Assembly (NCBI RefSeq): GCF_007746795.1
Contig: NZ_CP036343.1
Coordinates: 2,965,369 to 3,029,368 of the forward strand
Direction: 5' to 3'
DNA: 64,000 nucleotides
Source: Gimesia algae
GTDB taxonomy: Bacteria > Planctomycetota > Planctomycetia > Planctomycetales > Planctomycetaceae
This document shows, one piece after another, positions 2,615-57,415 of the stretch (its first letter is position 1; every line of letters begins with the position of its first letter). The position numbers and the translations under genes were made by a program. The notes under the pieces are model-generated. The model saw nothing but the letters and a program-made list of their open reading frames with translations. It made no database searches and was not told the DNA's origin.

Positions 2615-2708
2615 TAGACTGTGTCCAGTTTTACTGTCACGTCTCCAGGACCATTTGGATTGAGTATTTTCGATTGAGAGACGCGATTATTAAATGCCAT
2701 GCAATCAA
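2615..2708 (-). repeat. Dispersed palindromic MITE-like element, copy A (decayed)
   Basis: This is one of six related ~94-bp elements in the window. It begins TAGACTGTGTCCAG and carries CACGTCTCC and GAGAGACGC as the two inner arms. The far end is decayed: ATGCAATCAA replaces the ATGCGCTCTA of intact copies. Removing the element leaves CTAG as the empty site. It lies in the divergent intergenic region between the YhaM-like gene and proS (2326-2805), about 100 bp from the proS start, so it is close to the promoters of both. I saw no other gene or clear structure in that spacer. Confidence 0.75.
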
Positions 2709-2805
2709 GATTATGCGGCCGTTGATATCTAGTCACGTCCTGTACTCAAACGGACTCGCCTTCAACCTCATAAACTTATTCTCATCAAATACTTAAGGAA
2801 ATAAC

Positions 2806-4560
2806 GTGCGCTGGTCGAATACTCTGATCCCCACCATCAAAGAAGTTCCCGCCGACGCGGAGATTCCCAGCCATCAACTCATGCTGAGAGCCGGTCTGAT
2901 CCGTCAGTTGATGGCGGGGGCGTATACTTACCTTCCCCTGGGTTGGAAGGCGATTCAGAAAGCATCACAGATTATCCGGGAAGAAATGGACGCCGCCGGA
3001 GCCGCGGAACTTCATATGCCCGCTTTGCAACCGATCGGCCTGTTTGAACGCACACAGCGAAAAGAGGCCTTTGGATCCGTGCTGATCCAGTTCAATGTTC
3101 CCCGCGGAAATCGCCTGATTCCCATGGCACTTGGCCCTACACACGAAGAAGTCGTGACCGATCTCATCAGTCATTGCATCAGCAGCTACAAACAGCTGCC
3201 TCTGACGGTTTACCAGATTCAGACAAAATTCCGCAACGAAGAACGCCCCCGTTTTGGCGTGCTGCGTACCAGTGAATTTCTGATGAAAGACGCTTACAGC
3301 TTCAGTTCCTGCGTCGAACAACTCGATGAAATCTATGACCGCATGTACCGGGCCTACTGCCGCATTTTCGCCCGTTGTGGCCTGAAATACCTGCCTGTCG
3401 AAGCAGAAAGTGGCCCGATTGGCGGCGATGCCTCACACGAATTCATGATCCCCTCTGACAACGGTGAAGACTCCATCGTCTACTGTGAAGCCTCGGGCTA
3501 TGCAGCCAATATGGAACGGGCCGACACAGGGCGTACTTCGCCGGAAATCGCGACCAGCGACAATGCAGGTCTCCTGGAGAAAAAAGCAACTCCCGAGGCA
3601 ACAACTATTGAGCAGGTCAGTCAATTCCTGGGATGTGAACCATCCCAGATGATCAAAACCCTGATTTATCTGGCAGATGGCGAGCCAGTGGCCGTCCTGA
3701 TCCGTGGCGATCACGAAGCCAACGAAGGCAAAATCCGCCGCGCCCTGTCTGCCAGCTCAGTCGAGCTAGCGGATGACAAGACCATTCAGCAGGTCACAAA
3801 CGCGCCGACCGGTTTTGCCGGGCCGGTCGGCATCAAGTGCAAAATCATCGCTGACCACGACATCCCCATCATCGAAAACGCGATCACCGGGGCGAATGAA
3901 GCAGACACACACTACCTGAATGTGAATGTGGGCCGGGACTATCAGCTCGATACCACTTACGATCTACGCAATGCGGAAGCGGGCGACCCCTGTCCGAAGA
4001 GTGGCAAACCGCTGACGATTGTGCATGGCATCGAAGTCGGTCATGTATTCAAGCTGGGTACCAAGTACACAGAAGCCCTGGATGCGAACTTCCTGGACGA
4101 AAAAGAAAAGCGACATCCGATTATCATGGGTTGTTACGGGATCGGCGTGAATCGAATTGTCGCTGGTCTGGCAGAAACACGACATGACGAGAACGGCCTC
4201 ATCTGGCCCCTTTCGATTGCCCCCTATGAAGTACTGGTGATTCCGTTGAACATAAAAGACGACGAAGTCATGCAGACTGCGGAACGCTATTACAACGAAC
4301 TTAAAGCAGCCGGCGTTGATGTCCTGTTTGATGATCGCAATGCCCGGCCCGGCGTTAAATTCAAAGACGCGGACCTGGTCGGCATTCCCTATCGGGTCGT
4401 CATCGGCGGTAAGGGGCTGCAGAATGGAGAAATCGAAACCAAGTGGCGGACCGCAGAAAATGCAGAAATGATTGCCCTTGATGCCGGCATCACACCTGTT
4501 CTCGAAGCTCTGGAATCACGCAAGGCAGAAGAGTATCAGGCGGCGAATGTCCCTGAGTGA
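2806..4560 (+). CDS. proS: Prolyl-tRNA synthetase, bacterial type with editing insertion
   Basis: This class II aminoacyl-tRNA synthetase charges tRNA-Pro in the cytosol. It has 584 residues, normal for the bacterial form. Class II motif 2 is visible in [17 protein letters not shown], and motif 3 in [15 protein letters not shown]. The segment between them, about 250-390, is the YbaK/INS editing domain that hydrolyses mischarged Ala-tRNA-Pro. A C-terminal anticodon-binding domain follows ([13 protein letters not shown] onward). The start is GTG at 2806, supported by AAGGA at 2796-2800 and by the conserved opening [10 protein letters not shown]. The gene stands alone, divergent from the YhaM-like gene, and ends at a strong hairpin at 4596-4634. 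Confidence 0.97.
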
Positions 4561-4595
4561 ATTGCTTATATCCAGTAAGCGATAATCTATCAATA

Positions 4596-4634
4596 ATACA
4601 GGCGGGCTGAGAAATCTTCTCAGCCCGCCTGTAT
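4596..4634. terminator. Perfect 18-bp-stem hairpin between convergent genes
   Basis: ATACAGGCGGGCTGAGAA is followed by a 3-nt loop (ATC) and its exact reverse complement. It lies 36 bases after the proS stop and 28 bases before the stop of the convergent DUF1080 gene, so it can act for both. No long T-run follows (only GTTAAT), so the terminator function is inferred from stem strength and position. Confidence 0.75.
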
Positions 4635-4661
4635 GTTAATGAATTCGTAAACACAACCGGA

Positions 4662-5345
4662 TTACTTCAGCTCTTTAATCCGAATGTTTTTCCAGGCAAC
4701 AGAATAAGGACCGGTTCCCTTTTTGATACCATGTACCTGCAGACCGATGAACCCTGAAGGATGAGATTTGAAAACCCGCTCATCGACCAGATCTGATACC
4801 TGTTCTCCGTTAATCCAGGTTTGGATTCTGGGACCATTGGCGACAACCCGGAACTTGTTCCATTCGCCATCTTTCAGATTCTTGTGAGGCTTACGCTGAT
4901 CTTCTGGCGTCATCCAGCCAATGCCTTTATTTCCGTACCTGATCGCTTCGCCATAGATGTATCCCGCTTCCGCACCGTTGTCACCACTGGCTTCGATCTC
5001 GACCTGAGGCCCATTCACACGTCCGTCACCATTCTCCTGCTGGCTGCGGATCTGCACGCCAGAATTCAGGTTATCGTGAACTTTGACTTCAAATTCCAGT
5101 TCAAAATTACCATAGTTTTTCTTGGTACATAAAAACGAATTCGGGCTGCCTTCTGAGGTGGTGCCTTCAATCGTGCCATCTTTGACCATATAGGTCGCCG
5201 TTCCATTATGTTGTACCCAGTTATTGAGAGTCTTCCCGTCAAACAGACTCACCCAGCCAGAATTTGCTCCGGCCTGTACGCTCGCACTCAGGCAGACAGC
5301 AGTGAATAAAGCTGCACTCAATCCTACGATTTGATGTCGTTTCAT
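4662..5345 (-). CDS. Secreted DUF1080 (3-keto-disaccharide hydrolase-type) protein
   Basis: The product is 227 residues with a signal peptide (MKRHQIVGLSAALFTAVCL, cleavage near SVQA-GAN). The DUF1080 concanavalin/LamG-like fold opens with GWVSLFDGKTLNNWV and continues through NFELEFEVKVHDNLNSGVQIRS and WNKFRVVANGPRIQTWINGE. These are the conserved strands of this family, which is greatly expanded in planctomycetes and annotated as 3-keto-disaccharide hydrolase or glucanase-like. The start at 5345 is chosen over an in-frame upstream codon (5396) because GGAGAG lies just upstream and the signal peptide begins there. It lies downstream of a sulfatase on the same strand, so a joint role in polysaccharide breakdown is plausible but inferred. 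Confidence 0.85.
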   Translation of the reverse strand: MKRHQIVGLSAALFTAVCLSASVQAGANSGWVSLFDGKTLNNWVQHNGTATYMVKDGTIEGTTSEGSPNSFLCTKKNYGNFELEFEVKVHDNLNSGVQIRSQQENGDGRVNGPQVEIEASGDNGAEAGYIYGEAIRYGNKGIGWMTPEDQRKPHKNLKDGEWNKFRVVANGPRIQTWINGEQVSDLVDERVFKSHPSGFIGLQVHGIKKGTGPYSVAWKNIRIKELK

Positions 5346-5440
5346 GTTTCTCTCCAAAAAAGTCGCAATGTTGATAGTTCTTCGATAGTAGTTCAAAAGC
5401 CTGGTTCAGCGAGGTTCGCCTCTCCGGCAGACTGAATGGT

Positions 5441-6913
5441 TCAATCAATCGACGAGGACAAGACAGGTCCCGGCGCATTAATCTTCTGCGCCTGTTTCGC
5501 ATCCCCGGGCATTTCACGGTGTTCAAATTCGGGGGGCTCAGGTTCTCCCGGACGCTGATTTCTGTCGGGAGTCGGATTCTCCGGAATGGTATCTCCCGTC
5601 TGAACCGTCCATTGATCGAGGGCTTTGCTGAGCCGCGCCAGTTCCGCGGCGTGCGCGGGCTGTAATGCCAGATTATGAAACTGGTAGGGATCTTTGCTCA
5701 CCCGATACAGTTCTTCACGAGGTCGGGGTTTTAAAAATACGTCCTGCTGCCTCTCGTTCAGTTTACCCGCATTGAAACGGTCCCAGAGTACTTCGCCTGA
5801 AGGAAATTCGATTGACTCCACACACAGGTTACGCTGCTCAGGCCAGGCGTTGCGAATGTAAAGCCAGTCACCAGATCGTACCATCCGTTCGTGGGCTTTG
5901 AAGACATGCCAGTTATGTTCGGCAAAGGCAAAGTCACGGATTTTCGCATCCGGCTGTTTAAGGACCTTTTCAAAACTGACCCCCTGAATGCGTTTGTCGG
6001 GAGCGACACCTGCCACATCGAGAAATGTGGGGCCGATGTCCAGGGAACTGATCAGGCTGTGACTCACGCCGCCTGCTTTTACCGCGGCGGGCCAGCGGAC
6101 AATCAGAGGCGTTTTGATGCCGCTGTCATATAATCGGGTTTTACAGCGGGGAAAGGGGCGGCCATTGTCTGCGAAAAATAACACCAGTGTATTCTCAGCG
6201 ATCCCCTGGGCATCCAGCTCGTCCAGGATCTGGCCGGTAAAATAATCGATGCGACTGATCTCGTCATAGTACTGCGCCAGATCACGGCGTGTTTCTTCAC
6301 AGTCAATCAGGTAGGGAGGGACGACGACTTCAGAAGGCTGATGGGGCTGGTATTCTTTGGATGCCTGCCACGCGCGGTGGGCATCGACGGACGCGAACCA
6401 GCAGAAAAAAGGTTTGTCTTTGGGTCGTTCTTTCAGGATAGGAACCCAGTCAGCTTCGCGTCCCGGCCCTTTTCCTTTTGAGACAAGATCGAAGGATGTC
6501 AAGGCATAATTACCCATATGCTGCTTACCGGAGATCACCGTATAGTAACCGGCATCACGTAGTAACTGTGGAAATAACACCTGACCTTCAGGTAATGGGG
6601 TATGCAGTTCGGGTGCACCTGTGTTGTGAGGATAACGGCCTGTGATCACACTGCAACGGCTCGGACTGCAACTGCTGATCGTCAGATAGGCATTGTCAAA
6701 CCGCAGGCCTTCTTTAGCCAGTCGATCCAGATTGGGAGTTCGTATGGACGGATGACCGTAGCATCCCAGGTCGTTCCAGGAAACATCGTCGGCGAAAATC
6801 ATGACAATGTTCGGCGGAGCGGCAACGATGCGCTCAGACTGAAAAAAAGACGTCAGCAGAAAAATTGCCAACAGACAAAAGAGATGGTTCAAGGAAGAAA
6901 ATCGAACCTGCAT
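5441..6913 (-). CDS. Secreted sulfatase (formylglycine-dependent)
   Basis: A 490-residue sulfatase with an N-terminal signal peptide (hydrophobic stretch 8-24). The alkaline-phosphatase-superfamily core is clear: NIVMIFADDVSWNDLG gives the metal-binding Asp pair (42-43), and SCSPSRCSVITGR carries the C-x-P-S-R formylglycine site at Cys82. LVLFFADNGRPF supplies the later Asp-Asn. A formylglycine-generating enzyme encoded elsewhere would be needed for maturation. The layout resembles N-sulfoglucosamine sulfohydrolase-like and other polysaccharide sulfatases, but the substrate cannot be read from the sequence. The gene is followed on the same strand by the DUF1080 gene. Its C-terminal ~40 residues are proline- and glutamate-rich and probably disordered. 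Confidence 0.9.
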   Translation of the reverse strand: MQVRFSSLNHLFCLLAIFLLTSFFQSERIVAAPPNIVMIFADDVSWNDLGCYGHPSIRTPNLDRLAKEGLRFDNAYLTISSCSPSRCSVITGRYPHNTGAPELHTPLPEGQVLFPQLLRDAGYYTVISGKQHMGNYALTSFDLVSKGKGPGREADWVPILKERPKDKPFFCWFASVDAHRAWQASKEYQPHQPSEVVVPPYLIDCEETRRDLAQYYDEISRIDYFTGQILDELDAQGIAENTLVLFFADNGRPFPRCKTRLYDSGIKTPLIVRWPAAVKAGGVSHSLISSLDIGPTFLDVAGVAPDKRIQGVSFEKVLKQPDAKIRDFAFAEHNWHVFKAHERMVRSGDWLYIRNAWPEQRNLCVESIEFPSGEVLWDRFNAGKLNERQQDVFLKPRPREELYRVSKDPYQFHNLALQPAHAAELARLSKALDQWTVQTGDTIPENPTPDRNQRPGEPEPPEFEHREMPGDAKQAQKINAPGPVLSSSID

Positions 6914-7078
6914 GATGCACGCTACCTCATTCAGAATTAGAGAATTCAGGTCTCGACCTGCCAGACACTGTAGACCCTACAGTACTACAACAGGTCAGAC
7001 TTCTCAATCATGAGGCGGGAATTCTGCCGGTAAGTTCCGGTCAATCAATTACATAACAATCATTAGTAACTGGCAGGG

Positions 7079-10159: not shown

Positions 10160-10253
10160 TAGAGCGCATCACATTTAACTATAGCGTCTCCCAATCTATT
10201 ATGCTCGGCCCAAATGGCCCTGGAGACGCTACAGTAAAACTGGACACAGTCTA
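10160..10253 (+). repeat. Dispersed palindromic MITE-like element, copy B
   Basis: An intact ~94-bp copy reading TAGAGCGCATCACATTT at the left and GGACACAGTCTA at the right. The inner arms AGCGTCTCC and GGAGACGCT are exact complements. The bounding TA is present on both sides, and the empty site is CTAA (TTAG on the other strand). It lies in the 500-bp divergent spacer between the small TPR gene and the sulfatase gene; I saw nothing else in that spacer. Confidence 0.85.
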
Positions 10254-35493: not shown

Positions 35494-35585
35494 TAGAGCG
35501 CATCACATTTCACCATAGCGTTCTCAATCTATTTTACCAGGTGCAAATCGCCCTGGAGACGCTACAGAAAACTGGACACAGTCTA
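35494..35585 (+). repeat. Dispersed palindromic MITE-like element, copy C
   Basis: A 92-bp copy with ends TAGAGCGCATCACATTT and GGACACAGTCTA, two bases shorter than the others. The inner left arm reads AGCGTTCTC rather than AGCGTCTCC. The empty site is CTAA (TTAG on the other strand). It lies in the 362-bp spacer between ruvB and the zinc-ribbon gene at 35750, inverted relative to copy D on the other side of that gene. I see nothing else in the spacer. Confidence 0.85.
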
Positions 35586-35749: not shown

Positions 35750-36817
35750 TCAGTTAATGCGAGTCATACACCGGTAAGCAACAGCCCTCACCAGCATTTG
35801 GAAAGTGTACACAAAGCCAAAGACGACAAAGGCAAAAACCCCACCAGTAAGAATGACTGGTAAGGGAGAAACATTCAAAAACTCAATCAGCATCATCCCT
35901 CCGAGGATGAGCCCTGCTCCCAACAGTAACGGTATCCCAATAATAGCCAGAAAGACAAGCGTCATACTCAGCAGGTTCTTTTTCGTAAGATCAATTGAAC
36001 CGGTAAAGGCTTCAATTCCGGGTAGATTTCGATCGATCAGCAGATAGGGATAAGGCCAGAACAACAACCCCAGAAAGAAGCCGATCAAAAAGAAAATCAT
36101 ATTGCCAAACCCGACCACCAGCTGAAACACGATACCGCAAAGTATCATTCGCAGTAAAAAGCGGCCTCCGCTAAATAAATCGTTTAACCCGGTTTCCTCA
36201 CCCAGCGCAATCTTTAGCAACACGACCTGGGTACCAGCTTCAAAATAATTAAGCACAACCGTAGAAGCGATGATAAATATCAGGATCATCAATCCCATAC
36301 TGAACGCAGCTGGCGCCCCATTAATCATCAGCGCACCATTGATCAAGATAAAGAGCAATATGAGTACCGCAAACAATGCCATCAGAAGCAGCATACTGAG
36401 CAGACTGGCCAGGAACGGCACTGCCACACAAAGCCCTAGATGCTCGGTATACAATTGCCAGGAGCGTGAAAATACTTCGCCAACCTTTATCTGGTTGGGT
36501 TCCCAACGTTGATGTACCGTGTGGTGCATCATCTCACCACAGTAGTCGCACGTCAGCGTGCCGCGTGGGTTGGCCGCACCACACATGGGACATTGAATAT
36601 CTGCGGGAGAATTCGAACCAGCCAGAAAGCTTTCACGTTCCGGCACAGGTAGATCTGTATCAAACTGCTCAAAACCATCATCAAAGAGATCTGGTTCCTG
36701 CGCGGCTGGTACAGTGATCGGTTCTCCACACTGGGGGCATTTCGCCCGTCGCCCAGCCTTGTCATCGGAAGTTTTCAGGACTTTTTCGCATCCGGGGCAG
36801 CTGAACTCACTTGTCAA
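35750..36817 (-). CDS. Zinc-ribbon membrane protein, paralogue of 37123-38250
   Basis: The product is 355 residues. An MJ0042-type zinc finger opens it (SCPGCEKVLKTSDDKAGRRA, then CPQC), followed by a short acidic linker with PVPERESFLAGS. A second ribbon follows (IQCPMCGAANPRGTLTCDYC). From about 115 onward are about six membrane helices in a layout seen in DUF975- or YciC-like integral membrane proteins. Its paralogue at 37123-38250 has the same architecture and near-identical zinc-finger sequence. Repeat copies C and D, inverted to each other, bracket this gene. Function is unknown. Confidence 0.75.
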   Translation of the reverse strand: MTSEFSCPGCEKVLKTSDDKAGRRAKCPQCGEPITVPAAQEPDLFDDGFEQFDTDLPVPERESFLAGSNSPADIQCPMCGAANPRGTLTCDYCGEMMHHTVHQRWEPNQIKVGEVFSRSWQLYTEHLGLCVAVPFLASLLSMLLLMALFAVLILLFILINGALMINGAPAAFSMGLMILIFIIASTVVLNYFEAGTQVVLLKIALGEETGLNDLFSGGRFLLRMILCGIVFQLVVGFGNMIFFLIGFFLGLLFWPYPYLLIDRNLPGIEAFTGSIDLTKKNLLSMTLVFLAIIGIPLLLGAGLILGGMMLIEFLNVSPLPVILTGGVFAFVVFGFVYTFQMLVRAVAYRCMTRIN

Positions 36818-36852: not shown

Positions 36853-36946
36853 TAGACTGTGTCCAGTTTTACTGTAGCGTCTCCAGAGCAATTTGGATCG
36901 AGTAGAGAAGATTGAGAGACGCTACGGTTATCTGTGACGCGCTCTA
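36853..36946 (-). repeat. Dispersed palindromic MITE-like element, copy D
   Basis: A 94-bp copy reading TAGACTGTGTCCAG at the left and GACGCGCTCTA at the right, with inner arms AGCGTCTCC and GAGACGCT. The empty site is TTAG. It starts 36 bp upstream of the start codon at 36817, so it must lie in or against that gene's promoter or leader. The rest of the 305-bp spacer shows no gene. Confidence 0.85.
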
Positions 36947-37122: not shown

Positions 37123-38250
37123 TTATTGATTAGTCATCTCTGCATAACTCACAGTATTCAGCAGCATGGAAAACGGGATCAGCAGTAGATAAAACAAAGC
37201 CACGAAACCAAATAATATCAGGAGCCCGAGTGCGGACGCCTGTCCCCCCGGCTGTTGCATACCGGTCATGGTTGCCAGCATCAATACATAGGGGACCATC
37301 GTAATCCCTGTCATGATCAGATAGATCAGGAACATGGTGAGCTTATTCCCATCGGTGACTTTTCTGGATTCCGTGAAAGCATCAATTCCAGGCAAATCAC
37401 GGTCAATCAGCAGATAGGCATAGGGCCAGAACATACATACGACTATCAGACCAGGGATAATCAAACAGATCAGTCCAGCACTATAAGCCAGTATAAAGAC
37501 TATACTGCAGAGCACCATTCTGCCTAAAAACGGACCTCCACTGAAAATTTCTCCTATCCCTGGATACTCATTTTTCACCAGTTTCAATAAATAATTCATG
37601 ACTCCCAGCATCAGGTAAAACACGATACTGTAGACGAGTAAAATCGCGAGGATGTAGATCGCGATCAGTCCGGCAATCATCAGACCCGGATCAGCCTGTG
37701 CCAGCACCAATGCCCCTGCGAAAGCAATGGCTCCCAACACCATGAAGACCGCCGTTGCTCCCACAGCATAAAGTACATACGCAATGATATGGATCCCGAT
37801 GATTGAGCCCAGGTTTGCTTTATAGACTTCCCAGGTGCGGGAAAAAACTTCTCCGATCTTAATCTTGCGAGGAACCCATTCCCCTTTTTGCAGAGTTTCT
37901 CCACAGTGTTGACACCGTTTTGAATCGGCGGGAATGGATTCTCCACACATGGGACAATCCATCTGATTCCCAGACAGAAAGCTATCCTCTTCTCTCACAG
38001 GACGTTCAGCCAGAAAACTGTCTTCTTCCCGCACAGGGCCTTCAGCCAGAAAACTCTGATCTTCAGGAACCGGTGTCCCGGATTCAAGTTGATCAAAGCC
38101 ATCAAAACCGTCATCCATTGGAGCGGAGGGATCAGTCGCGGGGACGAGAATCGGTTCACCACACTGTGGGCACTTGGCACGACGACCGGCTTTATCATCA
38201 GAGGTTTTCAGGACTTTATTACAATGCGAGCAACTGAATTCAATCGTCAA
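37123..38250 (-). CDS. Zinc-ribbon membrane protein with expanded 12-residue repeats
   Basis: The product is 375 residues and paralogous to the preceding gene product. The N-terminal zinc finger reads SCSHCNKVLKTSDDKAGRRA plus CPQC, and a second ribbon reads DCPMCGESIPADSKRCQHC. Between them are three tandem 12-residue units (PVPEDQSFLAEG, PVREEDSFLAER, PVREEDSFLSGN) where the paralogue has one. About six membrane helices follow, ending SMLLNTVSYAEM. The pair looks like a tandem duplication later separated by the repeat element. Function is unknown; the start ATG 38250 fits the conserved opening of the zinc finger. Confidence 0.75.
   Translation of the reverse strand: MTIEFSCSHCNKVLKTSDDKAGRRAKCPQCGEPILVPATDPSAPMDDGFDGFDQLESGTPVPEDQSFLAEGPVREEDSFLAERPVREEDSFLSGNQMDCPMCGESIPADSKRCQHCGETLQKGEWVPRKIKIGEVFSRTWEVYKANLGSIIGIHIIAYVLYAVGATAVFMVLGAIAFAGALVLAQADPGLMIAGLIAIYILAILLVYSIVFYLMLGVMNYLLKLVKNEYPGIGEIFSGGPFLGRMVLCSIVFILAYSAGLICLIIPGLIVVCMFWPYAYLLIDRDLPGIDAFTESRKVTDGNKLTMFLIYLIMTGITMVPYVLMLATMTGMQQPGGQASALGLLILFGFVALFYLLLIPFSMLLNTVSYAEMTNQ
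37966..38073 (-). repeat. Three tandem 36-bp coding repeats
   Basis: Units at 38038-38073, 38002-38037 and 37966-38001 encode PVPEDQSFLAEG, PVREEDSFLAER and PVREEDSFLSGN. The period is exact and in frame. The neighbouring paralogue has a single unit (PVPERESFLAGS), so the array most likely grew by slippage or unequal crossing over. Confidence 0.8.
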
Positions 38251-39144: not shown

Positions 39145-41421
39145 TTACTGGTTCAGTTTTTTCTGAAGCTGATCAATCAATTTCGGGTCTGCGGGAGAGG
39201 ACTGTTGTGCTTCTTCCAGCGCTTTCTTCCAGAGCTCGTTCGCTTCTTTGGTTTTGTTAAGCTTGTGGTAGCAGTCTGCCAGATGATCCAGGATCGTACT
39301 GTCTCCCCCCCCTGGCAGCTTGCTGGCTTTCTCAAGATATCCAGCCGCTTCCTGAAAACGTTCCAGCTTGAATAAAACCCAGCCCATACTGTCAAGATAA
39401 GCCATATTGTCCGGTTCGGACTTCAGCGCGATCCGAATCATCTTTTCAGCTTTTTCCAGGTTTTTTCCCTGGTCAGCGTACAGATAACCCAAGTCATTAT
39501 TGATGGAGGGATTCTCAGGATCGTCCTCCAGCATCTCCTCCAGGACGGCTTCCCCTTTGCTAATATCCCCCTGTTGCACATAGGTATTAGAGAGCATCAT
39601 CTTCACTTGATAGACACGCTCTTTCTGTTCTGGATATTTCTTGATGAAATTCTGCATCTGCACAATGGCTTTGTCCCAATCGTGGCTGTGATAGTAGATC
39701 CAGGCGTGCTGATAATCCAGCAGAGGGAATTTGGGCGCAGCCTGCCGAGCTTCTTCATTCACTTTGATCGCTGCTTCCGTCTCTCCGTTTCGCTCTTGTG
39801 CGTCAGCCAGGAAATACAACAGATTGATCCGCTGCGGTGCCAGCAAGGGGTTCTCAACCGCTTTCTTCAGCAGGACAGCCAGCTCGCCATACTTGTCTTC
39901 TTCGCGTAGCAGCTGGCTGTATTCCTGAAGGATTAACAGCGTCCAGTTACCGCGAATCTGTGGTTTTTCATGTTTGGCGGCGGAATCCATGGCAAACTGA
40001 TAAAACTCAGCAGCAGCCTGTTTCTGATCGGCCTCGGAAGCGAGTTTAGCGATGATGAATGCAGAAAACACATCCACTCCGGGTGGATCTTCTTCCTTCA
40101 GCTTCTTCGCTTCCGCAATCAGACCTTTCACCAGTTCCGGATCTTTGGACATTTTTTCCAGATTGGATTGGATCCGCTGAACGCCATCCCCGGTCTGTAC
40201 GATTTTAGAGAGCGTCTCGATCAACTTGGCATATTTCTGATTTTTCTGATACAGCGATAACAGGCCTGCCAGGCCTTCCGTATTCGAAGATTTTCCAATG
40301 GATTCGAGATAAGTTTTTTCGGCGTCATCAAAACGTCCGTCTTCCCCGTATTGTTCTGCCAGATAATAATGCAGTGTCCGATTGAAGCGATCCTTTTCCG
40401 CGAGTTTTTCCAGCTGGGGAATCAGGTCGTCTGAACGATCCAATGCTGTTAAAATCTCCGCTAAAAACTCGTATGCTTTACGACCTTTGGATTGCAGCTG
40501 TTCATCGAAATACGACTGCAGTGAATCCAAAGCCTGCTGATACTGTTTGGACTGGTAATAAACCTGTGCCAGATGATACTTCAGGATCCCGGGACGTCCC
40601 TTCTGCGATTCAGCCGCTTTATTAAAAGCGTCTACCGCCAGTTTGAGGCGGTCTGTTTCCAGAAAAGACTGTCCGATTCGCTCATACAGCTTGCCCTGCT
40701 TGGCTTCCAGTTGTGAACGTGTATTGTACTCGAATGTAAATTCATCCGGTTTTGTGAGGGCGCGAAATACGACTTCCCAGCACTGGGCCGCCTCCTCTTT
40801 TTTACCCAGCCGCTCATACAGGTTTGCCTGATCGTGCTGGATGATGACATAGACTCCCGACTTCTTATCAATCGAAGGAGAATCCGAAGCCTTTTTCAGA
40901 AAAGTGACCGCCTCTTCAAAGCGTCCCTGTCCTGCCATATGCAGCCCCAGTTTCCGCATCAGCTCATAATCTTCGGGATCCAGCTCAACCGCCTTCTGAG
41001 CATATTCGATTGCTTCATCGGTCTTATCCAGCCCGGAAGCCAGCCTGATCAGAACCCGGTAAATCTCAACGGAATTGGGGTTATATTCCATTGCCTTTTT
41101 ATAGGCATCGTAGGCACCGATGAAATCATTCCGTGCCTCACGCATCCGCCCGGTCATATACCAGGCTGCTGAATCGATCTCTTTCTGATCCATGGGTGTG
41201 CGTGGTGTGGCAGGTACAAAAGGCAGCACCACATCATCGGCAATCCCTTCTTCCAGGGAAAATACCTTGGGAGCTTTCTGCTTCTGAGAATCTTTCTCGC
41301 CCCCTTTCTTCCCCGGCATTTTCGCAGACAGGATATCCAGGCTGGCTGTCAACACAAATGCTGCTAACCACAATGACAGACAGGCCCTCAAGATTGGCGT
41401 CCGGGGAAATCGACTCATCAT
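39145..41421 (-). CDS. Large secreted TPR protein
   Basis: The product is 758 residues with a signal peptide (hydrophobic LRACLSLWLAAFVLTASL, about 9-26). A Lys-rich spacer leads into TPR repeats over most of the chain, for example AYDAYKKAMEYNPNSVEIY, AIEYAQKAVELDPEDYELM, AVDAFNKAAESQKGRPGIL and AEKMIRIALKSEPDNMAYL. The protein probably acts as an envelope scaffold or assembly factor, an inference from repeat type only. GGAG lies just upstream of the tandem ATG codons at 41421/41418. It is the last gene before a 243-bp spacer to the HhH-GPD-like gene. Confidence 0.8.
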   Translation of the reverse strand: MMSRFPRTPILRACLSLWLAAFVLTASLDILSAKMPGKKGGEKDSQKQKAPKVFSLEEGIADDVVLPFVPATPRTPMDQKEIDSAAWYMTGRMREARNDFIGAYDAYKKAMEYNPNSVEIYRVLIRLASGLDKTDEAIEYAQKAVELDPEDYELMRKLGLHMAGQGRFEEAVTFLKKASDSPSIDKKSGVYVIIQHDQANLYERLGKKEEAAQCWEVVFRALTKPDEFTFEYNTRSQLEAKQGKLYERIGQSFLETDRLKLAVDAFNKAAESQKGRPGILKYHLAQVYYQSKQYQQALDSLQSYFDEQLQSKGRKAYEFLAEILTALDRSDDLIPQLEKLAEKDRFNRTLHYYLAEQYGEDGRFDDAEKTYLESIGKSSNTEGLAGLLSLYQKNQKYAKLIETLSKIVQTGDGVQRIQSNLEKMSKDPELVKGLIAEAKKLKEEDPPGVDVFSAFIIAKLASEADQKQAAAEFYQFAMDSAAKHEKPQIRGNWTLLILQEYSQLLREEDKYGELAVLLKKAVENPLLAPQRINLLYFLADAQERNGETEAAIKVNEEARQAAPKFPLLDYQHAWIYYHSHDWDKAIVQMQNFIKKYPEQKERVYQVKMMLSNTYVQQGDISKGEAVLEEMLEDDPENPSINNDLGYLYADQGKNLEKAEKMIRIALKSEPDNMAYLDSMGWVLFKLERFQEAAGYLEKASKLPGGGDSTILDHLADCYHKLNKTKEANELWKKALEEAQQSSPADPKLIDQLQKKLNQ

Positions 41422-47946: not shown

Positions 47947-48409
47947 AACAATTGCGCATAAAGCACCACTACAATGAATACTTCACTATCAAGTGAAATT
48001 AATCTTCGCGCGTTCAGATGTCAAGCACCGCAGGCAACTATTTCATAACGACTTAACTTCACCGAAATAGATTTACCAAAACAGCAGCAGATACGGAAAA
48101 CCCGTACAGTTACGCGACGCTATTTCCAACACCTCTCCCAAATCTCAAGCAGATCAAATTCAGCACTTTCTTCCCGATGAGAGCAGATTGATCTCCATCA
48201 AAATACAAAAGTTCTATAGTATCATACGCAGAGCCCTGAAATTGGCGACCCCTTTCTTCCAGAGAAAGCTGCGTCAATCGGAAGCTCATTTGCTGCAGCT
48301 TTCAGACAGACTGATCCCGGATCAGCTCCCCTGCGATTGCCTGCATCATGTTAAACCCGCTCGAAAGAGCCTAATTTTCTACCCTCAAATATTGAAGGAC
48401 AACCCTGCA

Positions 48410-49831
48410 ATGTCTCGCATTTTACCAATGCTGGTTCTCTGCCTTGGAATCCCGCTCTCCGCATCTGCACAACCACCTACTGCCACAAACGACCCTTATG
48501 CTCAGCAGAAAATCCAGGCTGACCAGGCGCAGCAGCAAGGGGACTACGCAAAATCAATCACCATTACCTCACAAGTCCTGCAACAGAAGCCCGATGATCA
48601 CGTTGCTTATTATCTGCGGGCCAGTGCCCGTGTCGAAGCAGGTCGTGAGCAAGGCAACGTCCAGTCCATCCGCGAAGGAGTAGGCGATGCCCGCGAGGCG
48701 ATCCGCTTCAGCCAGAACCAGAATGTCAACTATTACCTGCCCTACCTGTATGGGATGATGAATCTGGCGGTCATGGAAAACAAAAAAAGCCATGCAGAGA
48801 CTGCACTCGGTGTTGCAAACCAGGTACTGGCCCGCACGACATTGACCCCGGAAGAAAAAGCCAACTTTCATTACCAGCGCGGCATGATTTACCTGCCTTT
48901 GAACAAACCACAGGAGGCAGCGCAGGATTTCACGGAAACCATCAAATTGTCACCTGATCACTTTGCAGCACTCCTCGCCCTGCCTGACGCATATGCTCTT
49001 GCCGGCAATAATGATATGGCCCTGGCCAGTTTCAACCAGGTAATTCAGAAACAGCCAAATTCTCCCGTGGTCTATAACAACCGGGCGATGTTCTACCAGC
49101 AGCAGGGAAAGCTACAGGAAGCCATCAATGACTTCTCCCAGGCAATCCAGATCGATCCGAAGTACCATCACGCCATCACCAACCGTGGCTTTGCCTACCT
49201 GGAAGGTGGTAAACCGGATACTGCGGAAGCCGACCTGACACAATCCCTGTCAATTGAGCCCAATCAACCCTTTGTCCTGGGGATGCGGGGAGAAGCCCGA
49301 CTTCTGCAGGGTAAAATCACGGAAGCGATTGACGACCAGAAAAAAGCAGTTCAAATGGATCCGCAAAACCCGGCCCTGCACTCCGATCTGGGTTTCTCCT
49401 ATTTCTTTAACCATGACTATCCGGCTGCCCTGACCGAATTCAAACTGGCCGCACAACTGGCTCCGGAACAGATGAAAGTTCTCGATCCATGGATCTATCT
49501 GGCATTGACTCAGAGTAACCAGAAATCAGCCGCTGATGCCAGGTTCCAGTCAGTCATCGCTAAAAAACCGGACACTCGCGACTCCATCGACAACCTGCTT
49601 CTATTTTTGATGGGAACCATCTCAAACACTGAACTGCTCGATTCCATCGACCAGAAAGATGTGGAACGAGCGAAAGCTCAAATCTGTGAAGCCTATTACT
49701 TCATCGGACAGAAAGCACTTCTGGCCGGTGACACTGCAACCGCCTCCCAGAACTTCCAGGCCTCGTTGAACACAAAAATGACGGGCCTGTCCGCATACCG
49801 CGGCGCTCAATATGCCCTGAAGAAATTTTAG
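48410..49831 (+). CDS. Secreted TPR protein; stop codon lies in a repeat element
   Basis: The product is 473 residues with a signal peptide (MSRILPMLVLCLGIPLSASA, cleavage before QPP). TPR repeats fill most of it: YAKSITITSQVLQQKPDDH, AAQDFTETIKLSPDHFAAL, AINDFSQAIQIDPKYHHAI, AEADLTQSLSIEPNQPFVL and AIDDQKKAVQMDPQNPALH. ATG 48410 is chosen over 48188 because AAGGA lies about 10 bases upstream and the signal peptide begins there. The TAG stop (49829-49831) coincides with the first bases of repeat copy E. The protein probably mediates envelope protein contacts; the partner is unknown. Confidence 0.8.
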   Translation: MSRILPMLVLCLGIPLSASAQPPTATNDPYAQQKIQADQAQQQGDYAKSITITSQVLQQKPDDHVAYYLRASARVEAGREQGNVQSIREGVGDAREAIRFSQNQNVNYYLPYLYGMMNLAVMENKKSHAETALGVANQVLARTTLTPEEKANFHYQRGMIYLPLNKPQEAAQDFTETIKLSPDHFAALLALPDAYALAGNNDMALASFNQVIQKQPNSPVVYNNRAMFYQQQGKLQEAINDFSQAIQIDPKYHHAITNRGFAYLEGGKPDTAEADLTQSLSIEPNQPFVLGMRGEARLLQGKITEAIDDQKKAVQMDPQNPALHSDLGFSYFFNHDYPAALTEFKLAAQLAPEQMKVLDPWIYLALTQSNQKSAADARFQSVIAKKPDTRDSIDNLLLFLMGTISNTELLDSIDQKDVERAKAQICEAYYFIGQKALLAGDTATASQNFQASLNTKMTGLSAYRGAQYALKKF

Positions 49832-49922
49832 ACTGTGTCCCGTTTTACTGTAGCGTTCCCAGGGCTGCTTGACCCAGACATACTGCATTGAGGGACGCTA
49901 TGGCTAAATGTAATGCGCTCTA
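49829..49922 (-). repeat. Dispersed palindromic MITE-like element, copy E
   Basis: A 94-bp copy reading TAGACTGTGTCCCG at the left and ATGCGCTCTA at the right. The first TAG is the stop codon of the TPR gene. The reconstructed empty site, AAATTTTAGTTTC, has the same amber stop, so insertion at TA left the protein unchanged. The inner arms are AGCGTTCCC and GGGACGCT. It lies between two convergent genes. Confidence 0.85.
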
Positions 49923-51708: not shown

Positions 51709-52953
51709 CTAAGGCGCCTTCTGCAGAACCAGACAGGCATTATGTCCGCCGAACCCGAAGCTGTTCTTCATCACCCTGTTCAGCTTCATTTCACGTGGCT
51801 CGTTGGGAATGTAATCGAGATTACAATTTTCGTCCGGATTATCGAGATTGATGGTTGGCGGTGCCACCTGTTCCTGCAACGCTTTCACACCGACTACAAA
51901 CTCGACACCCCCTGATGCTCCCAGTAGATGCCCCAAATGCCCTTTCGTACTGGAGACCGGCATCTGCTTCACATGTGAATGAAACACGGAATTGATGGCA
52001 GCGGTCTCCGCCACATCTCCCAGAGGTGTACTGGTTCCATGTGTGTTAATATAGTCGATATCTTCCGGATTCAAACCCGCATCTTTAATCGCATGCAGCA
52101 TGGCGCGGGCCGCACCCCGTCCTTCAGGATCAGGAGCTGTCATATGTGTCCCATCTGCAGACATACCATAACCGACGATTTCCGCGAGAATCGGAACCCC
52201 CCGCTTTTTAGCATGTTCGTACTCCTCAAGCACGATGATACCGGCCCCTTCTGCCATGACAAATCCATCTCGATCACGATCGAAGGGACGACTGGCTGAC
52301 TGAGGATCATCGTTGCGTGTCGACAGTGCATTCATCCGGGCAAAACCAGACAACCCCATCGGAGTCACCGCAGCTTCACTCCCGCCTGTGATCATTATGT
52401 CTGCAACATCATGCTGAATCAGCTTGAACGCATCCCCGATCGCATTGGTGGCGGAAGCACAAGCAGTCGCCACAGCGCTGTTCGGTCCTTTTAATTCGTA
52501 AGTGACCGATATATTCCCACTGGCAGCATTGACCATCAGCTTGGGAATCATAAAGGGAGAAACACGTGCTGGCCCCTGGTTGTAAAGTCGATCATGCTGA
52601 CTTTCGATTTCATTCAGACCGCCAATACCACTACCGACCAGAACTCCTCTGCGATAGGGATCACCGTCAAAATCTTCGAGCTGAGCCTGGCGATAAGCAA
52701 TATGCGCCCCTACCAGACCGAACTGCACAAACCGGTCAACACGCTTCAGATCTTTCGCTGAGATATTCGTATATTCGCTGGCATTGAAATCCTTGATCTC
52801 ACCACCAAAACGAACTTTGTAGTCTGAACAGTCAAAGCGTTCCAGCGGACCAACACCACTCTTACCAGCGCATAACTTGTCCCAGAACTCTGAGACATCT
52901 AAACCCAGAGCCGTTACAACAGATACTCCGGTAACGACAACTCTCCTGCGCAT
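51709..52953 (-). CDS. fabF: 3-oxoacyl-[acyl-carrier-protein] synthase II
   Basis: FabF condenses malonyl-ACP with acyl-ACP in fatty-acid elongation. The product is 414 residues. The catalytic Cys165 lies in VATACASATNAIGDAF, the first His in INTHGTSTPLGD and the second in STKGHLGHLLGASG, so the Cys-His-His triad is intact. The N-terminal RRVVVTGVSVVTALGLDV and C-terminal NSFGFGGHNACLVL are family signatures. It lies 84 bp after acpP on the same strand. Confidence 0.96.
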   Translation of the reverse strand: MRRRVVVTGVSVVTALGLDVSEFWDKLCAGKSGVGPLERFDCSDYKVRFGGEIKDFNASEYTNISAKDLKRVDRFVQFGLVGAHIAYRQAQLEDFDGDPYRRGVLVGSGIGGLNEIESQHDRLYNQGPARVSPFMIPKLMVNAASGNISVTYELKGPNSAVATACASATNAIGDAFKLIQHDVADIMITGGSEAAVTPMGLSGFARMNALSTRNDDPQSASRPFDRDRDGFVMAEGAGIIVLEEYEHAKKRGVPILAEIVGYGMSADGTHMTAPDPEGRGAARAMLHAIKDAGLNPEDIDYINTHGTSTPLGDVAETAAINSVFHSHVKQMPVSSTKGHLGHLLGASGGVEFVVGVKALQEQVAPPTINLDNPDENCNLDYIPNEPREMKLNRVMKNSFGFGGHNACLVLQKAP

Positions 52954-53037
52954 TCGTGAGCACTTCCTACAATGAAAAGACAGGACCAGATAGTTTCAAA
53001 ACAAAGGACAGCTCAGCTGACTGGAATCGAACCGGGT

Positions 53038-53271
53038 TCAGCTTGCCTTTTCAGTGATGTAGCCAACTACATCGCCGACAGTTTTGATTTTGTCATAGTC
53101 GTCATCAGGAATGGTCACATCAAACTCGTCTTCGAATTCCATTACGAGTTCTACAATGTCCAGAGAATCGGCCTTGAGGTCGTCGATAAATTTGCTGTCC
53201 AGCGTAATATCTTCCTTAGGGTGGCCTAATTGCTCGCTAACGATACCAACCACTTTTTCTTCAATTGACAC
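53038..53271 (-). CDS. acpP: Acyl carrier protein
   Basis: The product is 77 residues, highly acidic, and carries the phosphopantetheine-attachment Ser36 in the motif [12 protein letters not shown]. It carries growing acyl chains in the cytosol. The gene sits between fabD and fabF, the usual order, with a 389-bp gap upstream to fabD that contains an inverted repeat at 53413-53436. Confidence 0.96.
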
Positions 53272-53412
53272 TCTTCTTCTCCTTCACCGTCTTAGTGATT
53301 TTTTTAACTTCAGGATGGCTGGAAACATTATTACCAGACCGACTTGGATGGATTCGCCAACAGATGTAGCGATGATATATCCACTTTCCCGATTTATGTA
53401 AACCTTAAAATG

Positions 53413-53436
53413 AGACAAGAATTATGAGTCTTGTCT
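53413..53436. promoter_or_regulatory. Perfect inverted repeat in the acpP leader
   Basis: AGACAAGA and TCTTGTCT (8-bp arms) flank an 8-base loop ATTATGAG. A second, longer-range pair (AATTATGAG 53420-53428 with CTCATAATT 53453-53461) overlaps it, so two exclusive structures could form. It lies about 140 bp upstream of the acpP start within the 389-bp fabD-acpP spacer. It could be an operator or an RNA structure; neither is shown. No gene is visible elsewhere in the spacer. Confidence 0.3.
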
Positions 53437-53660
53437 ACTTCACCAAAGTTCTCTCATAATTTGATCGGGCTGACTTTACCAGTCTGAGAACCCATGATTT
53501 TGGGTTCTACAGAATTTTCTTCAGAGTTCCCGCGTAAGTTGTTGTAGCACAAATTGATAGACCAGATCAAGCTCTGAATTACCAGCAAAAATGTACCTCG
53601 CGACACCACTGTCCTTATGCACGCTTTAATAAATACACACCGATTACTGCTGCGAACCCC

Positions 53661-54569
53661 CTATGAATCGTTAACCGTTTCACAGGAAATTTTTCGATCG
53701 ACGCGTTTCATCAAACCTTTCAGAACTTTACCAGGACCGATTTCATAAAACTCATCAAAACCTGACGCCAGCATCGTCCGCAGGGAATCCTCCCAGAGCA
53801 CCGGACTGATCACCTGGCGTACCAGTAAATCGCGAATCTCATCGGGTTCTTCGTGAATTTCCGCATCAACATTAGAAATTACGGGAATTTCCGGCTTCTT
53901 CAGACCAACTCCCGCCAACGCTTCTGACAGACGACTGTCAGCCGGCTTCATGATTTCCGTGTGAAACGCTCCTGCGACGGCCAGAGGAATCGCTCGCCCC
54001 CCCTCCTGCTCAGCCAGTTCCGCCGCCAGTTCACAGGCACTGTTTTCACCGGACAGAACGATATTTCCAGGGCAGAGATAATTGGCAATCCAGATTTTAC
54101 CAGCAGAGGATGCAGACTGACAGATCTCGGAGACTTTTTCCCGATCCAGCAGCAGAACACTGACCATTCCCGAAGGATTGGCATCGGCGGCGGCCTGCAT
54201 TGCTTCGCCACGACGTTGCACCACACGCAGCCCGTCCTCAAAGCTCATCGCGCCCGCAAAAACCAAAGCAGTATACTCTCCCAGGCTCAAACCAGCTGCC
54301 ATCTCACAAGCCAGAACCTTATCAGGTGAATCTGCACGCAACATCTCTAAAGCGGCCAGACTGGTCACAAACAAAGCGGGTTGACTGATGACGGTCGAAT
54401 CCAGTTCTTCACTGGGACCTTCAAAGCAGAGCTTTGCCAGATCGTATTCCAGAATTTCCGATGCGCGATGATACAGTTCCCGGGCTGCCGGATATTTTTC
54501 GGCGATCGTTTTACCCATCCCGACATGCTGAGCACCCTGTCCGGGAAATAAAAAAGCGATTCTGCTCAC
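53661..54569 (-). CDS. fabD: Malonyl-CoA-ACP transacylase
   Basis: FabD moves malonate from CoA to ACP. The product is 302 residues. It opens with IAFLFPGQGAQHVGMG, and the nucleophile Ser95 lies in GLSLGEYTAL, where Leu replaces the His of the usual GHSLG box, a variant seen in other FabD proteins. The catalytic His appears in VAGAFHTEIM and the active-site Gln/Arg segments are present. It lies 51 bp after plsX on the same strand. Confidence 0.95.
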   Translation of the reverse strand: MSRIAFLFPGQGAQHVGMGKTIAEKYPAARELYHRASEILEYDLAKLCFEGPSEELDSTVISQPALFVTSLAALEMLRADSPDKVLACEMAAGLSLGEYTALVFAGAMSFEDGLRVVQRRGEAMQAAADANPSGMVSVLLLDREKVSEICQSASSAGKIWIANYLCPGNIVLSGENSACELAAELAEQEGGRAIPLAVAGAFHTEIMKPADSRLSEALAGVGLKKPEIPVISNVDAEIHEEPDEIRDLLVRQVISPVLWEDSLRTMLASGFDEFYEIGPGKVLKGLMKRVDRKISCETVNDS

Positions 54570-54620
54570 GAGTCGATCCCTCTATTTTTGGAATTGCACT
54601 GCTAGTTATAAGATGCCGAC

Positions 54621-55622
54621 TCAGGCGACAGGCTTCTGCGCCAGATGTTCGGCGATCTGCGAATTGATGCCACGGTTCTTGAACATGGCACTTCCCTTCA
54701 ATGCGTTTGCGATCGAGTGAGCATCACTGGAACCATGACAGATAATACAAATGCCGTCGATCCCGAGTAATGGTGCACCGCCGGTTTCATGGTAATGGAA
54801 CCGCTTGCCCATTTCCTGAAAGGCCAGCTTAGCCTTATCCCGCTCCGCATCCAGGCTGCCGATGATCTGCCGGGAAGCTTCCTTCATCAGAAAATCAGCC
54901 ATCCCCTCACTGACCTTTAACACCACATTGCCGACAAAACCTTCACAGATCAATACGTCAGCTTCCCCCTGATAGAGCCCGCGACCTTCAACATTGCCGA
55001 CAAAGCTGTCTTTCAGTAGCCCTTCATTAAGCAGGCGGTAGGTGTCGCGATAGAGATCATTCCCCTTCACGTCTTCACTCCCGATATTGATCAGACCAAT
55101 CTTGGGAGACTCAACCCGCAGTACTTCGCGAGCATAGATTTCACCCATCACTGCGTACTGATAGAGATGAGAAGGCCGTGCAGAAGGATTGGCACCGACA
55201 TCCATCAGCACGGCATGGCCGGCACTGGTGGGTAATGTCACTGCAATCCCGGGACGTTTGACACTTTTCAGGAACAGGCGGGTTTTCAGACCAGAAGCGA
55301 CAACCGCACCGGTATTCCCGGCACTGACAACCGCATCTACCTCACGGGCCGCCATCAGTTTCCAGCAGACAGAAATCGAGCTGTCCGGTTTCTGACGCAT
55401 GGCATCAGTCGGTTTTTCCTCCATCCCCACAACCTGACTGGCATGGACAATCGAAAGACGATCGCCATTATAGCCCGATGCTTCTACCTGAGCTTCAAGC
55501 AGGTCACGGGGACCAACCAGAACGACATTGAGTGCAGGGTCCGCCTGCAATGCAACGATTGCTCCTGTTATGTTCGGTTCGGGGGCATAATCTCCCCCCA
55601 TTGCATCCAGTGCAATCCGCAT
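54621..55622 (-). CDS. plsX: Phosphate acyltransferase PlsX
   Basis: PlsX makes acyl-phosphate from acyl-ACP for phospholipid synthesis. The product is 333 residues and begins MRIALDAMGGDYAPEPNITG, a family signature. Others are SAGNTGAVVASGLKTRL, GANPSARPSHLYQYAVMG, FVGNVEGRGLYQG and CEGFVGNVVLKVSEGMADF. It follows rpmF by six bases, the widespread rpmF-plsX arrangement that ties ribosome and lipid synthesis. Confidence 0.97.
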   Translation of the reverse strand: MRIALDAMGGDYAPEPNITGAIVALQADPALNVVLVGPRDLLEAQVEASGYNGDRLSIVHASQVVGMEEKPTDAMRQKPDSSISVCWKLMAAREVDAVVSAGNTGAVVASGLKTRLFLKSVKRPGIAVTLPTSAGHAVLMDVGANPSARPSHLYQYAVMGEIYAREVLRVESPKIGLINIGSEDVKGNDLYRDTYRLLNEGLLKDSFVGNVEGRGLYQGEADVLICEGFVGNVVLKVSEGMADFLMKEASRQIIGSLDAERDKAKLAFQEMGKRFHYHETGGAPLLGIDGICIICHGSSDAHSIANALKGSAMFKNRGINSQIAEHLAQKPVA

Positions 55623-55628
55623 TGACCA

Positions 55629-55808
55629 CTAGTCCTCAGTATCAACGATGGTTCGCCCCTGATAGAAACCACAACTAGGGCAAATGGCATGAGAAGGGGA
55701 CGCGGTACCACATTGTGGGCAATAGGTGGGCTTACTTGCCTTAACACCATTATGACTGCGTCTCTTACGAGAATTGGATTTTGACATCCGTCTTTTAGGA
55801 ACTGCCAT
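55629..55808 (-). CDS. rpmF: 50S ribosomal protein L32
   Basis: A 59-residue basic protein beginning MAVPKRRMSKSNSRKRRSHN, the standard L32 start. A zinc-ribbon with two Cys pairs follows (YCPQCG and ICPSCG), ending GFYQGRTIVDTED. The four Cys mark the zinc-binding form of L32. The start is ATG 55808 and the stop TAG ends six bases before the plsX start. It is the first gene of the rpmF-plsX-fabD-acpP-fabF cluster. Confidence 0.95.
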   Translation of the reverse strand: MAVPKRRMSKSNSRKRRSHNGVKASKPTYCPQCGTASPSHAICPSCGFYQGRTIVDTED

Positions 55809-56078
55809 GAAAAAGACCGCCTTTAAACACCTGACTTATCTTAAACTAAACGTAATACGTAACTTAACACTTTTTTTAGACCCTGTAAGCGCACGGAGAT
55901 CTCTCATACCAGCTTTTCTGACAGGAATCGAACATACTATGCAATTTTCAAAACAACTGTCAAGCTACAGGGCCTACATCAGACGATATCAAAAATGATA
56001 TTTCCATATTGATTCGCGTAATCAAAACATCGGTACACACATTAATCCCTATGGGATCCCAGGAAAACGAGTAAAGCA

Positions 56079-57311
56079 ATGACGGATCATCGCCTCAAAC
56101 CACCTGCATCACGAACCTTTCAGATCATTCTGACAGTCGCCACGCTCATTCTGCTCCTGCAGAATCATGTCTCGGCTGCGCCACAACAGATGACTCCGCA
56201 AGAACTTCAGTCATTTGGCAAGCAGATTCAGGACACTGCCACTGCTCAGGATCCGACAAAATTTCGGGCCCTGTTTGACTGGAAAACATTCATTAATCGG
56301 GTTCTGGCAGAATACGAACAGAATTCCGCCGTCAAACAGGCGATTCAACCCGTTCGCCAGCAGCTTGAAGCCGCCTACACAGCTGAAAACCAGGGCATTG
56401 ACTCGGAAATTCTAGCAGAAGTCGCCAACGGAGCGGACTATCGCTTCCTCGCCATGCGAAAGGAAGATGACCAGTATAAAGTTATTTTCCGCTTTCTCAG
56501 ACCCGACTGGACGCTCAATTACCAGGCCCTGATTATTGAAAAGCAGGATTCCGGAGAACTGAAAATCATCGACATCGACAGCTTCTCTACAGGAGAACTG
56601 ATCTCTCAGTCACTGCAGCGACTGTACCTGCCTGAACTGTATAAAGCGCATGGAGCGAATCAGGATAAACTGACTCCCGATGAAAAAACACGGATTCTGG
56701 ATCAGAAAAAACGCTATGACTTTTTGACTTCCACAGATGAAAAATCAGATCCATTCCAAGCATATACACAACTTCCGACTCAATACAAAAGCGACAAAAC
56801 CGTCCTGCTCTTTCTGGCACAAGACTCGATTGCAAAAGAAGACAGCAAAAAATACCAGCAGGTATTAAACGTTTATCGCAAGTATCATCCTCAGGATTCC
56901 GCTGCGGAACTTCTGAGTATCGATTATTTCAGCATGGAAAAACAATATCCCCAGGCAATCGACAGCCTGGAGCGTCTGTCCGCTTCACTGAAAACGGTGG
57001 ACCCTTATCTGTACTCCCTGCGGGCCGGCATCCTGATCGAAATGGGTGACATCAATCTGGCTGGAAAGTATGCAGGCAAAGCATCTGAAATCGAACCGGA
57101 TCTGTTGCAACCTTACCTGCATCTGCTCAATATTTCCGTAATGCAAAGCAACTTCGACGAAACCATCAGGCACCTGGAAACTCTTGAAACCAAATTCGGA
57201 TTTGCCTACGAAGACCTGGATCTCAGCGAGTTGGAAAACATCGACAAATTCACCGCCTCACCTCAATTCAAAAAATGGCAGTCTGAAAGGCTGCCTCCCA
57301 AAGCAAAATAA
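56079..57311 (+). CDS. Secreted protein of unknown function with C-terminal TPR-like repeats
   Basis: The product is 410 residues with a signal peptide (hydrophobic IILTVATLILLLQNHVSA, cleavage near AA-PQQ). A predicted alpha/beta region at about 35-175 (FRALFDWKTFINRVLAEYEQ, YKVIFRFLRPDWTLNYQAL) is followed by TPR-like helices (AAELLSIDYFSMEKQYPQAI; AGKYAGKASEIEPDLLQPYL). I do not recognise the family. The gene ends TAA 10 bases before repeat copy F and is convergent with the prenyltransferase-repeat gene. Confidence 0.7.
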   Translation: MTDHRLKPPASRTFQIILTVATLILLLQNHVSAAPQQMTPQELQSFGKQIQDTATAQDPTKFRALFDWKTFINRVLAEYEQNSAVKQAIQPVRQQLEAAYTAENQGIDSEILAEVANGADYRFLAMRKEDDQYKVIFRFLRPDWTLNYQALIIEKQDSGELKIIDIDSFSTGELISQSLQRLYLPELYKAHGANQDKLTPDEKTRILDQKKRYDFLTSTDEKSDPFQAYTQLPTQYKSDKTVLLFLAQDSIAKEDSKKYQQVLNVYRKYHPQDSAAELLSIDYFSMEKQYPQAIDSLERLSASLKTVDPYLYSLRAGILIEMGDINLAGKYAGKASEIEPDLLQPYLHLLNISVMQSNFDETIRHLETLETKFGFAYEDLDLSELENIDKFTASPQFKKWQSERLPPKAK

Positions 57312-57321
57312 CAGACAAGCC

Positions 57322-57415
57322 TGGAACGCATCACATTTAACCATAGCGTCTCTCAATCTAGCATACTCGGTCCAAATGGCCCTGGAGACGCTACGGTAAA
57401 ACTGGACACAGTCTA
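57322..57415 (+). repeat. Dispersed palindromic MITE-like element, copy F
   Basis: A 94-bp copy with ends TGGAACGCATCACATTT (left, TA changed to TG) and GGACACAGTCTA (right). The inner arms AGCGTCTC and GAGACGCT pair. It fills nearly the whole spacer between two convergent genes. Its right-end TA plus one base supplies the TAG stop of the minus-strand gene at 57413. The reconstructed empty site is CTAG, also an amber stop in that frame. Confidence 0.85.

Follow-up and report, generated by a model that had tools for sequence, protein, structure and literature searches.

Our analysis of a 64,000-nucleotide stretch of the Gimesia algae genome (contig NZ_CP036343.1, positions 2,965,369 to 3,029,368; this whole stretch is called the window here) identifies six short palindromic repeats as members of one family of miniature inverted-repeat transposable elements (MITEs). 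The family is new but of a well-known kind, and it is abundant in the planctomycete genus Gimesia; we found no description of it in the literature searched, a search that lay outside most subscription journals. It is very likely that the six repeats are MITE copies and that an IS630-type DDE transposase, provided in trans by a 1,025-bp insertion sequence (IS), recognises their ends. The genome that contains the window (G000) is a single contig of 7,929,454 bp.

All six repeats reported in the original prediction are present at their positions and can be aligned as one family (Table 1). We define the TAGAGCGC end as the left end, and orientations below follow this definition. The two terminal halves of about 31 bp match as predicted at about 70%, with 21 of 31 consensus positions complementary, and the near-perfect inner arms that had been described are represented in the consensus by the perfect arm TAGCGTCTC. 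Some of the finer claims hold for only part of the set. The length of about 94 bp is correct for every copy except C; copies B to E share both ends and are bounded by TA on both sides, but A and F have different left ends that lack the TA. The predicted YTAG loci (CTAG for A and F, TTAG for B to E) become, in element orientation, C-TA-A for all of B to E, with A and F flanked by C to the left and by G to the right. When up to two mismatches are allowed, TAGAGCGCATCAC has six matches in the window against 1.22 expected, a number reached in none of 100 shuffles; five of these matches are copies B to F, the sixth (at 39588) has no match to the family profile, and copy A is missed.

Table 1. Positions of the MITE copies in the window, and of a second MITE family elsewhere in the genome
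Feature	Position	Strand	Remarks
MITE copy A	2615..2708	-	94 bp; left end degenerate (TTGATTGC), right end TCTA intact
MITE copy B	10160..10253	+	94 bp; C before the left TA, A after the right TA
MITE copy C	35494..35585	+	92 bp; C before the left TA, A after the right TA; empty site aligns without a gap in G012 and G008
MITE copy D	36853..36946	-	94 bp; in element orientation C before the left TA, A after the right TA; empty in G012
MITE copy E	49829..49922	-	94 bp; TAG at the right end serves as stop codon of ORF 48188-49831 (+); site empty in G008
MITE copy F	57322..57415	+	94 bp; left end reads TGGAACGC; TAG at the right end serves as stop codon of ORF 57413-58621 (-); site empty in G008
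Second MITE	e.g. L442-L471 position 1501 onward; genome 1166595, 3267712, 795442, others

The right-end pattern ACTGGACACAGTCTA, again with up to two mismatches, matches G000 at 272 places (141 + 131 on the two strands) and its reversed control at 52 (25 + 27), from which we estimate that this genome carries about 220 copies. With a 94-bp consensus and this copy number the family fits the usual description of a MITE as a short (<200 bp) multi-copy element without a transposase gene. We extracted 108 distinct copies, 96 of full length and 12 partial; the 82 that are exactly 94 bp long have a mean identity to the consensus of 0.94, and 14 of the 3,321 pairs they form are identical. The density in the window, which had been called high, does exceed the genome average (6 copies against about 1.8 per 64 kb, Poisson P ~0.01, a value that takes no account of how the window was chosen), but the genome is not similarly dense throughout. 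A search for the family in other genomes gave matches in 17 of 17 Gimesia genomes (16 relatives and G000 itself) and in none of 23 genomes outside the genus. First-look candidates number from 8 to 296 per Gimesia genome, and the matches scored in the relatives are the best ~22 of each. G010 on the one hand and G014 and G016 on the other have their own lineage-specific consensus sequences, which fits a separate amplification of the MITE in several lineages. Two of 24 copies from relative G008 share their site, both flanks matching clearly, when compared with the 108 extracted copies that make up about half of those in G000, and in three further pairs (one from G008, two from G006) both flanks match G000 copies only in a displaced register.

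Full-length IS630 elements with the same ends, which the original prediction proposed to look for, are present in two sister genomes. A search of the 17 Gimesia genomes for the DDE domain PF13358 gave 31 matches, 30 of them with loci, and terminal pairs were sought in 29 of these loci. For two of them, L147 (in G016) and L148 (in G001), the best-scoring pair is the MITE left end, present at each side of a 1,025-bp element, whose ends are TAGAGCGCATCACATTTTAG.ATAGC and TAGAGCGCATCACAGTTAA.CGTAGC and which sits with C before its left TA and G after its right TA. Of 26 positions, 23-24 in these ends agree with the MITE left end. The element has two overlapping frames, one of 122 residues with a helix-turn-helix (HTH) region that matches HTH_Tnp_IS630 above the family cut-off and one of 223 residues that contains the DDE region (PF13358 at 1.6e-33; NCBIfam NF033545, transpos_IS630, at 5.3e-42); because they join at a run of A's, a programmed frameshift is suggested. 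Matches to the L147-type transposase occur in 5 of the 17 genomes, full length in G016 and G001 and as fragments in G001, G008, G012 and G013. In named genomes 270 stretches encode more distant relatives; 80 of these were retrieved, and 36 of the 80 were scanned for ends. Terminal pairs were found in 26 of the 36 and none in the other 10; TAGAGC stands at both ends in 20 of the 26, and in those 20 every available flanking base is C or T, so the MITE falls in with a wider IS630 group that has TAGAGC ends. The transposases resident in G000 were also considered as partners. The locus of one of them, L061 (G000:C1:6794431), contains neither MITE end motif within 3.5 kb at up to two mismatches, and L062, the sole other PF13358 match in G000, falls below the family cut-off. 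L061 itself is an IS630-type transposase gene that an IS5-type element, whose ends lie at CTAG, appears to interrupt.

The matching IS ends, the restriction of the family to one genus among the 40 genomes searched, the CTAR flank and the empty sites described below all support the original proposal that these MITEs were moved in trans by an IS630-type transposase. In the mechanism we envisage, such an enzyme (Tc1/mariner superfamily) would be supplied by the 1,025-bp IS with its TAGAGCGCATCAC ends, would recognise the MITE ends in trans and would cut and paste the element into the TA within CTAR, duplicating the TA. From the biology of IS630 we infer that an L147-type transposase would have moved the present copies in this way.

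The flanking bases of the copies in G000 define the motif CTAR. Among the 96 full copies (the 12 partial ones are excluded from counts of ends), C precedes the left end in 87, the right end is followed by A in 53, G in 38 and T in five (A or G in 91), and TA is present at both ends of 74; the remaining 22 are excluded from counts of sites. Since the first search query included two flanking A's and thus favoured copies followed by AA, we recounted polarity on copies with the exact right-end pattern, for which loci were available at 86 of the 90 places listed. The sites of the 67 such copies with TA at both ends are CTAA 31, CTAG 27, CTAT 3, TTAA 3, TTAG 2 and TTAT 1, and those of 89 copies from relatives are CTAG 38, CTAA 33, TTAG 6 and others 12. 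CTAA and TTAG are one site read from two sides, so the ratio of 31:2 (P 1.3e-7) means that orientation is strongly fixed at asymmetric sites. The relatives give 33:6 (P 1.4e-5), with copies that are not fully independent and were chosen because they matched copy B best; taken alone, G006 has no CTAA bias (3:4). Since the two ends of the MITE differ, the orientation bias could plausibly stem from contact between a specific end and the flanking base.

The infB region was compared in ten relatives (18 stretches), of which nine were used, since the 7,676-bp contig of G006 stops short of the sites. No match to the element was found at the syntenic place in any of the nine (E 1e-3). Both flanks could be aligned for copy C in nine relatives, for D in G012, for E in eight and for F in four, and all four sites examined (C, D, E and F) are empty with clean junctions. 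The sequence predicted by removal of the element and one TA aligns without a gap across the junction for C in G012 and G008, D in G012, E in G008 and F in G008, where the junction letters on the + strand of the window are CTAC, CTGC, GATG, TTAA and TCAG, respectively. Emptiness of the sites thus agrees with the original prediction, but YTAG itself, which had been expected there, is found at none of the five junctions, and this goes against that prediction in its strict form. Duplication of the TA at insertion is borne out by the TA at both ends of most full copies and by the fit of these one-TA junctions.

Several observations weigh against the conclusion that an IS630-type transposase moved these copies. 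No transposition was observed. The right end of the MITE (TAGACTGTGTCC...) fits the ends of the partner less well than the left end does (15-17 of 26 positions). The L147-type transposase has no match in G000 (0 at E <=0.001, with eight candidates scored), so that the partner is lacking in the very genome that holds the window; mobility there is for that reason probably past or dormant, and the G000 copies are probably now immobile. Orphan MITEs are known, however, and a partner in the same genome is desirable rather than defining. The orientation bias at CTAA is unexpected for a simple symmetric TA target. TA is present in only two of the five empty junctions, although flank identities of roughly 75-87% leave room for later change. 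Finally, the mean folding energy of the copies is -28.9 kcal/mol, against -26.0 for a randomly mutated consensus, a difference that conservation of the putative transposase-bound ends could explain.

An IS5-family (IS427-like) transposase was suspected as the partner from the likeness of TAGA and CTAG: IS5-type elements in Gimesia share the initial TAGA and the insertion at CTAG, and they remain multi-copy in G000, with nine PF13340 matches there and up to 24 in G010. The main resident one (L063-L068) has ends TAGAGGGTATCC... and TAGAGGTGGTCC... and lies at CTAG in five of its six copies and at CTAT in the sixth. There is also a precedent in MITEPsy1 of Pseudomonas syringae, a 100-nt MITE that has been shown to transpose, is listed as 'IS5?' and inserts after CTAG or YTAA; it differs from the Gimesia MITE in its 4-bp duplication and ISPsy2-like ends (as described in PMC3189936). 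The suspicion was dropped once the matching IS630 ends had been found and scored. Eight ends of four IS5-type elements agree with the MITE ends at 8-12 of 26 positions, against the 23-24 of the IS630 ends with the left end, and none of the eight has the TAGC that both MITE ends and the IS630 ends carry at positions 23-26. An IS5-family partner is strongly disfavoured and, we believe, very improbable. The IS5-type elements L063-L068 (one element), L070 and L071 have ends TAGAGG... or TAGAAG....

We rate as equally improbable that the repeats are not a mobile element but a structural RNA or a hairpin with a regulatory role, such as a terminator or riboregulator, that selection maintains. The consensus does form a strong hairpin (minimum free energy -33.4 kcal/mol for the strand that reads TAGACTG, -21.0 for its complement), the folding energies above point the same way, and the copies tend to lie outside genes, 44 of 57 overlapping no open reading frame (ORF) of at least 80 residues and 16 of 57 lying between convergent ORFs. 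The strand difference in energy at first suggested selection on an RNA, but changes that would keep a wobble pair are not spared: among single transitions at Watson-Crick pairs in 177 distinct copies, 148 keep pairing and 174 break it. Double changes that keep a pair number only 15 in 6,018 cells, and a separate pair count gives 17 against 23-57 when the partners are slid by 1-3 columns, so there is no compensatory excess. Nothing in the window matches Rfam at the gathering threshold, and the empty sites and the widely different numbers of candidates per genome likewise disfavour a structural RNA. Least probable of all, to the point of being negligible, are palindromes of the REP/BIME type moved by a RAYT (Y1 HUH) transposase, which would share the short length, palindromic form, mainly intergenic position and high copy number of the MITE; REP palindromes carry GTAG/CGTC tags and are associated with a RAYT gene. 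On anatomy, which is the ground of this rejection, a 94-bp element with two TA-flanked terminal inverted repeats that match a DDE-type IS is unlike a REP, described as a palindrome of 20-40 bp (PMC3733652).

The closest parallel to a MITE moved in trans by an IS630-type transposase is the RUP element of pneumococcus, which is described as an intergenic repeat of about 107 bp with more than 100 copies, a TA target and ends like those of the IS630-family element IS630-Spn1, by which it was proposed to be moved in trans (PMC2229807, PMC3049150). The Gimesia MITE differs from RUP in its unrelated host, its size, the lack of a partner match in G000, its strict CTAR flank and its single orientation at asymmetric sites. 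The Correia/NEMIS and ERIC elements are likewise described as short TA-bounded bacterial repeats with terminal inverted repeats (PMC2229807), a likeness of anatomy; effects on mRNA stability or promoters are reported for them. IS630 itself, from Shigella sonnei, prefers the TA in CTAG (Tenzen and Ohtsubo 1991, as cited in PMC2170065), and ISY100 is reported to cut and paste in vitro (PMC2170065). Both duplicate TA, as the Gimesia MITE does, but both are autonomous; the Gimesia partner, unlike them, is from an IS630 group whose members have TAGAGC...TAGC ends and two frames that overlap. The analysis identifies a short, dispersed and abundant repeat of Gimesia and names its likely transposase, which leaves that assignment open to test, and the few hundred natural insertions make up a data set on how Tc1/mariner-type elements choose their orientation at asymmetric sites.

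The MITE begins with G and ends with C inside its TAs, so that insertion into CTAG leaves CTAG at both ends; the target is duplicated and not consumed. CTAG is scarce in the window (23 against 41 expected), and seven of the 23 are at the six MITE copies. CTAA is also under-represented there (60 against 98 expected). Copies joined head to tail with one common TA occur at four junctions (twice in L340, and in L013 and L303), and recombination is a possible source of these by duplication. IS5-type elements adjoin the MITE boundary in L066 and L067. G000 also contains a second MITE of 110 bp, TAGTGGAGTGTC...GACAAAGCACTA, with 32 matches, of which we examined 30, the other two having no locus. Another IS630-type element (L152, L162) has similar ends and is likely to be the partner of this second family. 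The second MITE adjoins the first in 17 of the 30 copies, three of these next to partial copies; at L457 it interrupts the first MITE at an internal site. This frequency is far above the estimated share of the first MITE in all CTAG sites (~12%, P 6e-9) and above its share of intergenic ones (~24%, extrapolated from one window, P 1e-4). It is unsurprising if half of the usable sites are at the first MITE (P 0.29), as are 7 of 14 in the window, and a preference for MITE ends beyond the supply of CTAG is not established. We suggest only tentatively, and hold it to be rather doubtful, that IS630-type integration reads the asymmetric CTAR and thereby fixes orientation, with the left end against C, and that the CTAGs regenerated in a CTAG-poor genome act as self-renewing landing pads for elements that seek CTAG (the second MITE and IS5-type ISs), building nested clusters by positive feedback.

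The same insertions can be used to ask how TA-targeting elements regenerate stop codons as well as rare CTAG sites. The ORF that runs into copy E ends TTT TAG, its TAG being taken from the right end of the element, and the aligned sequence in G008 and G014 is TTT TAA; insertion of copy E therefore sits in a stop codon and regenerates the stop. The ORF next to copy F likewise takes its stop codon from the right-end TAG. With ORFs called mechanically, 57 G000 copies that have 1 kb or more of sequence on each side were classified: seven of them (eight ends) provide the stop of an ORF of at least 80 residues, and six overlap an ORF in another way.

Copy D is located between two zinc-ribbon ORFs (35750-36817 and 37123-38250). 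These neighbours have in common a 102-nt repeat (at 36717 and 38150; 76% identity) and a 36-nt repeat motif, and they are probably tandem paralogues.

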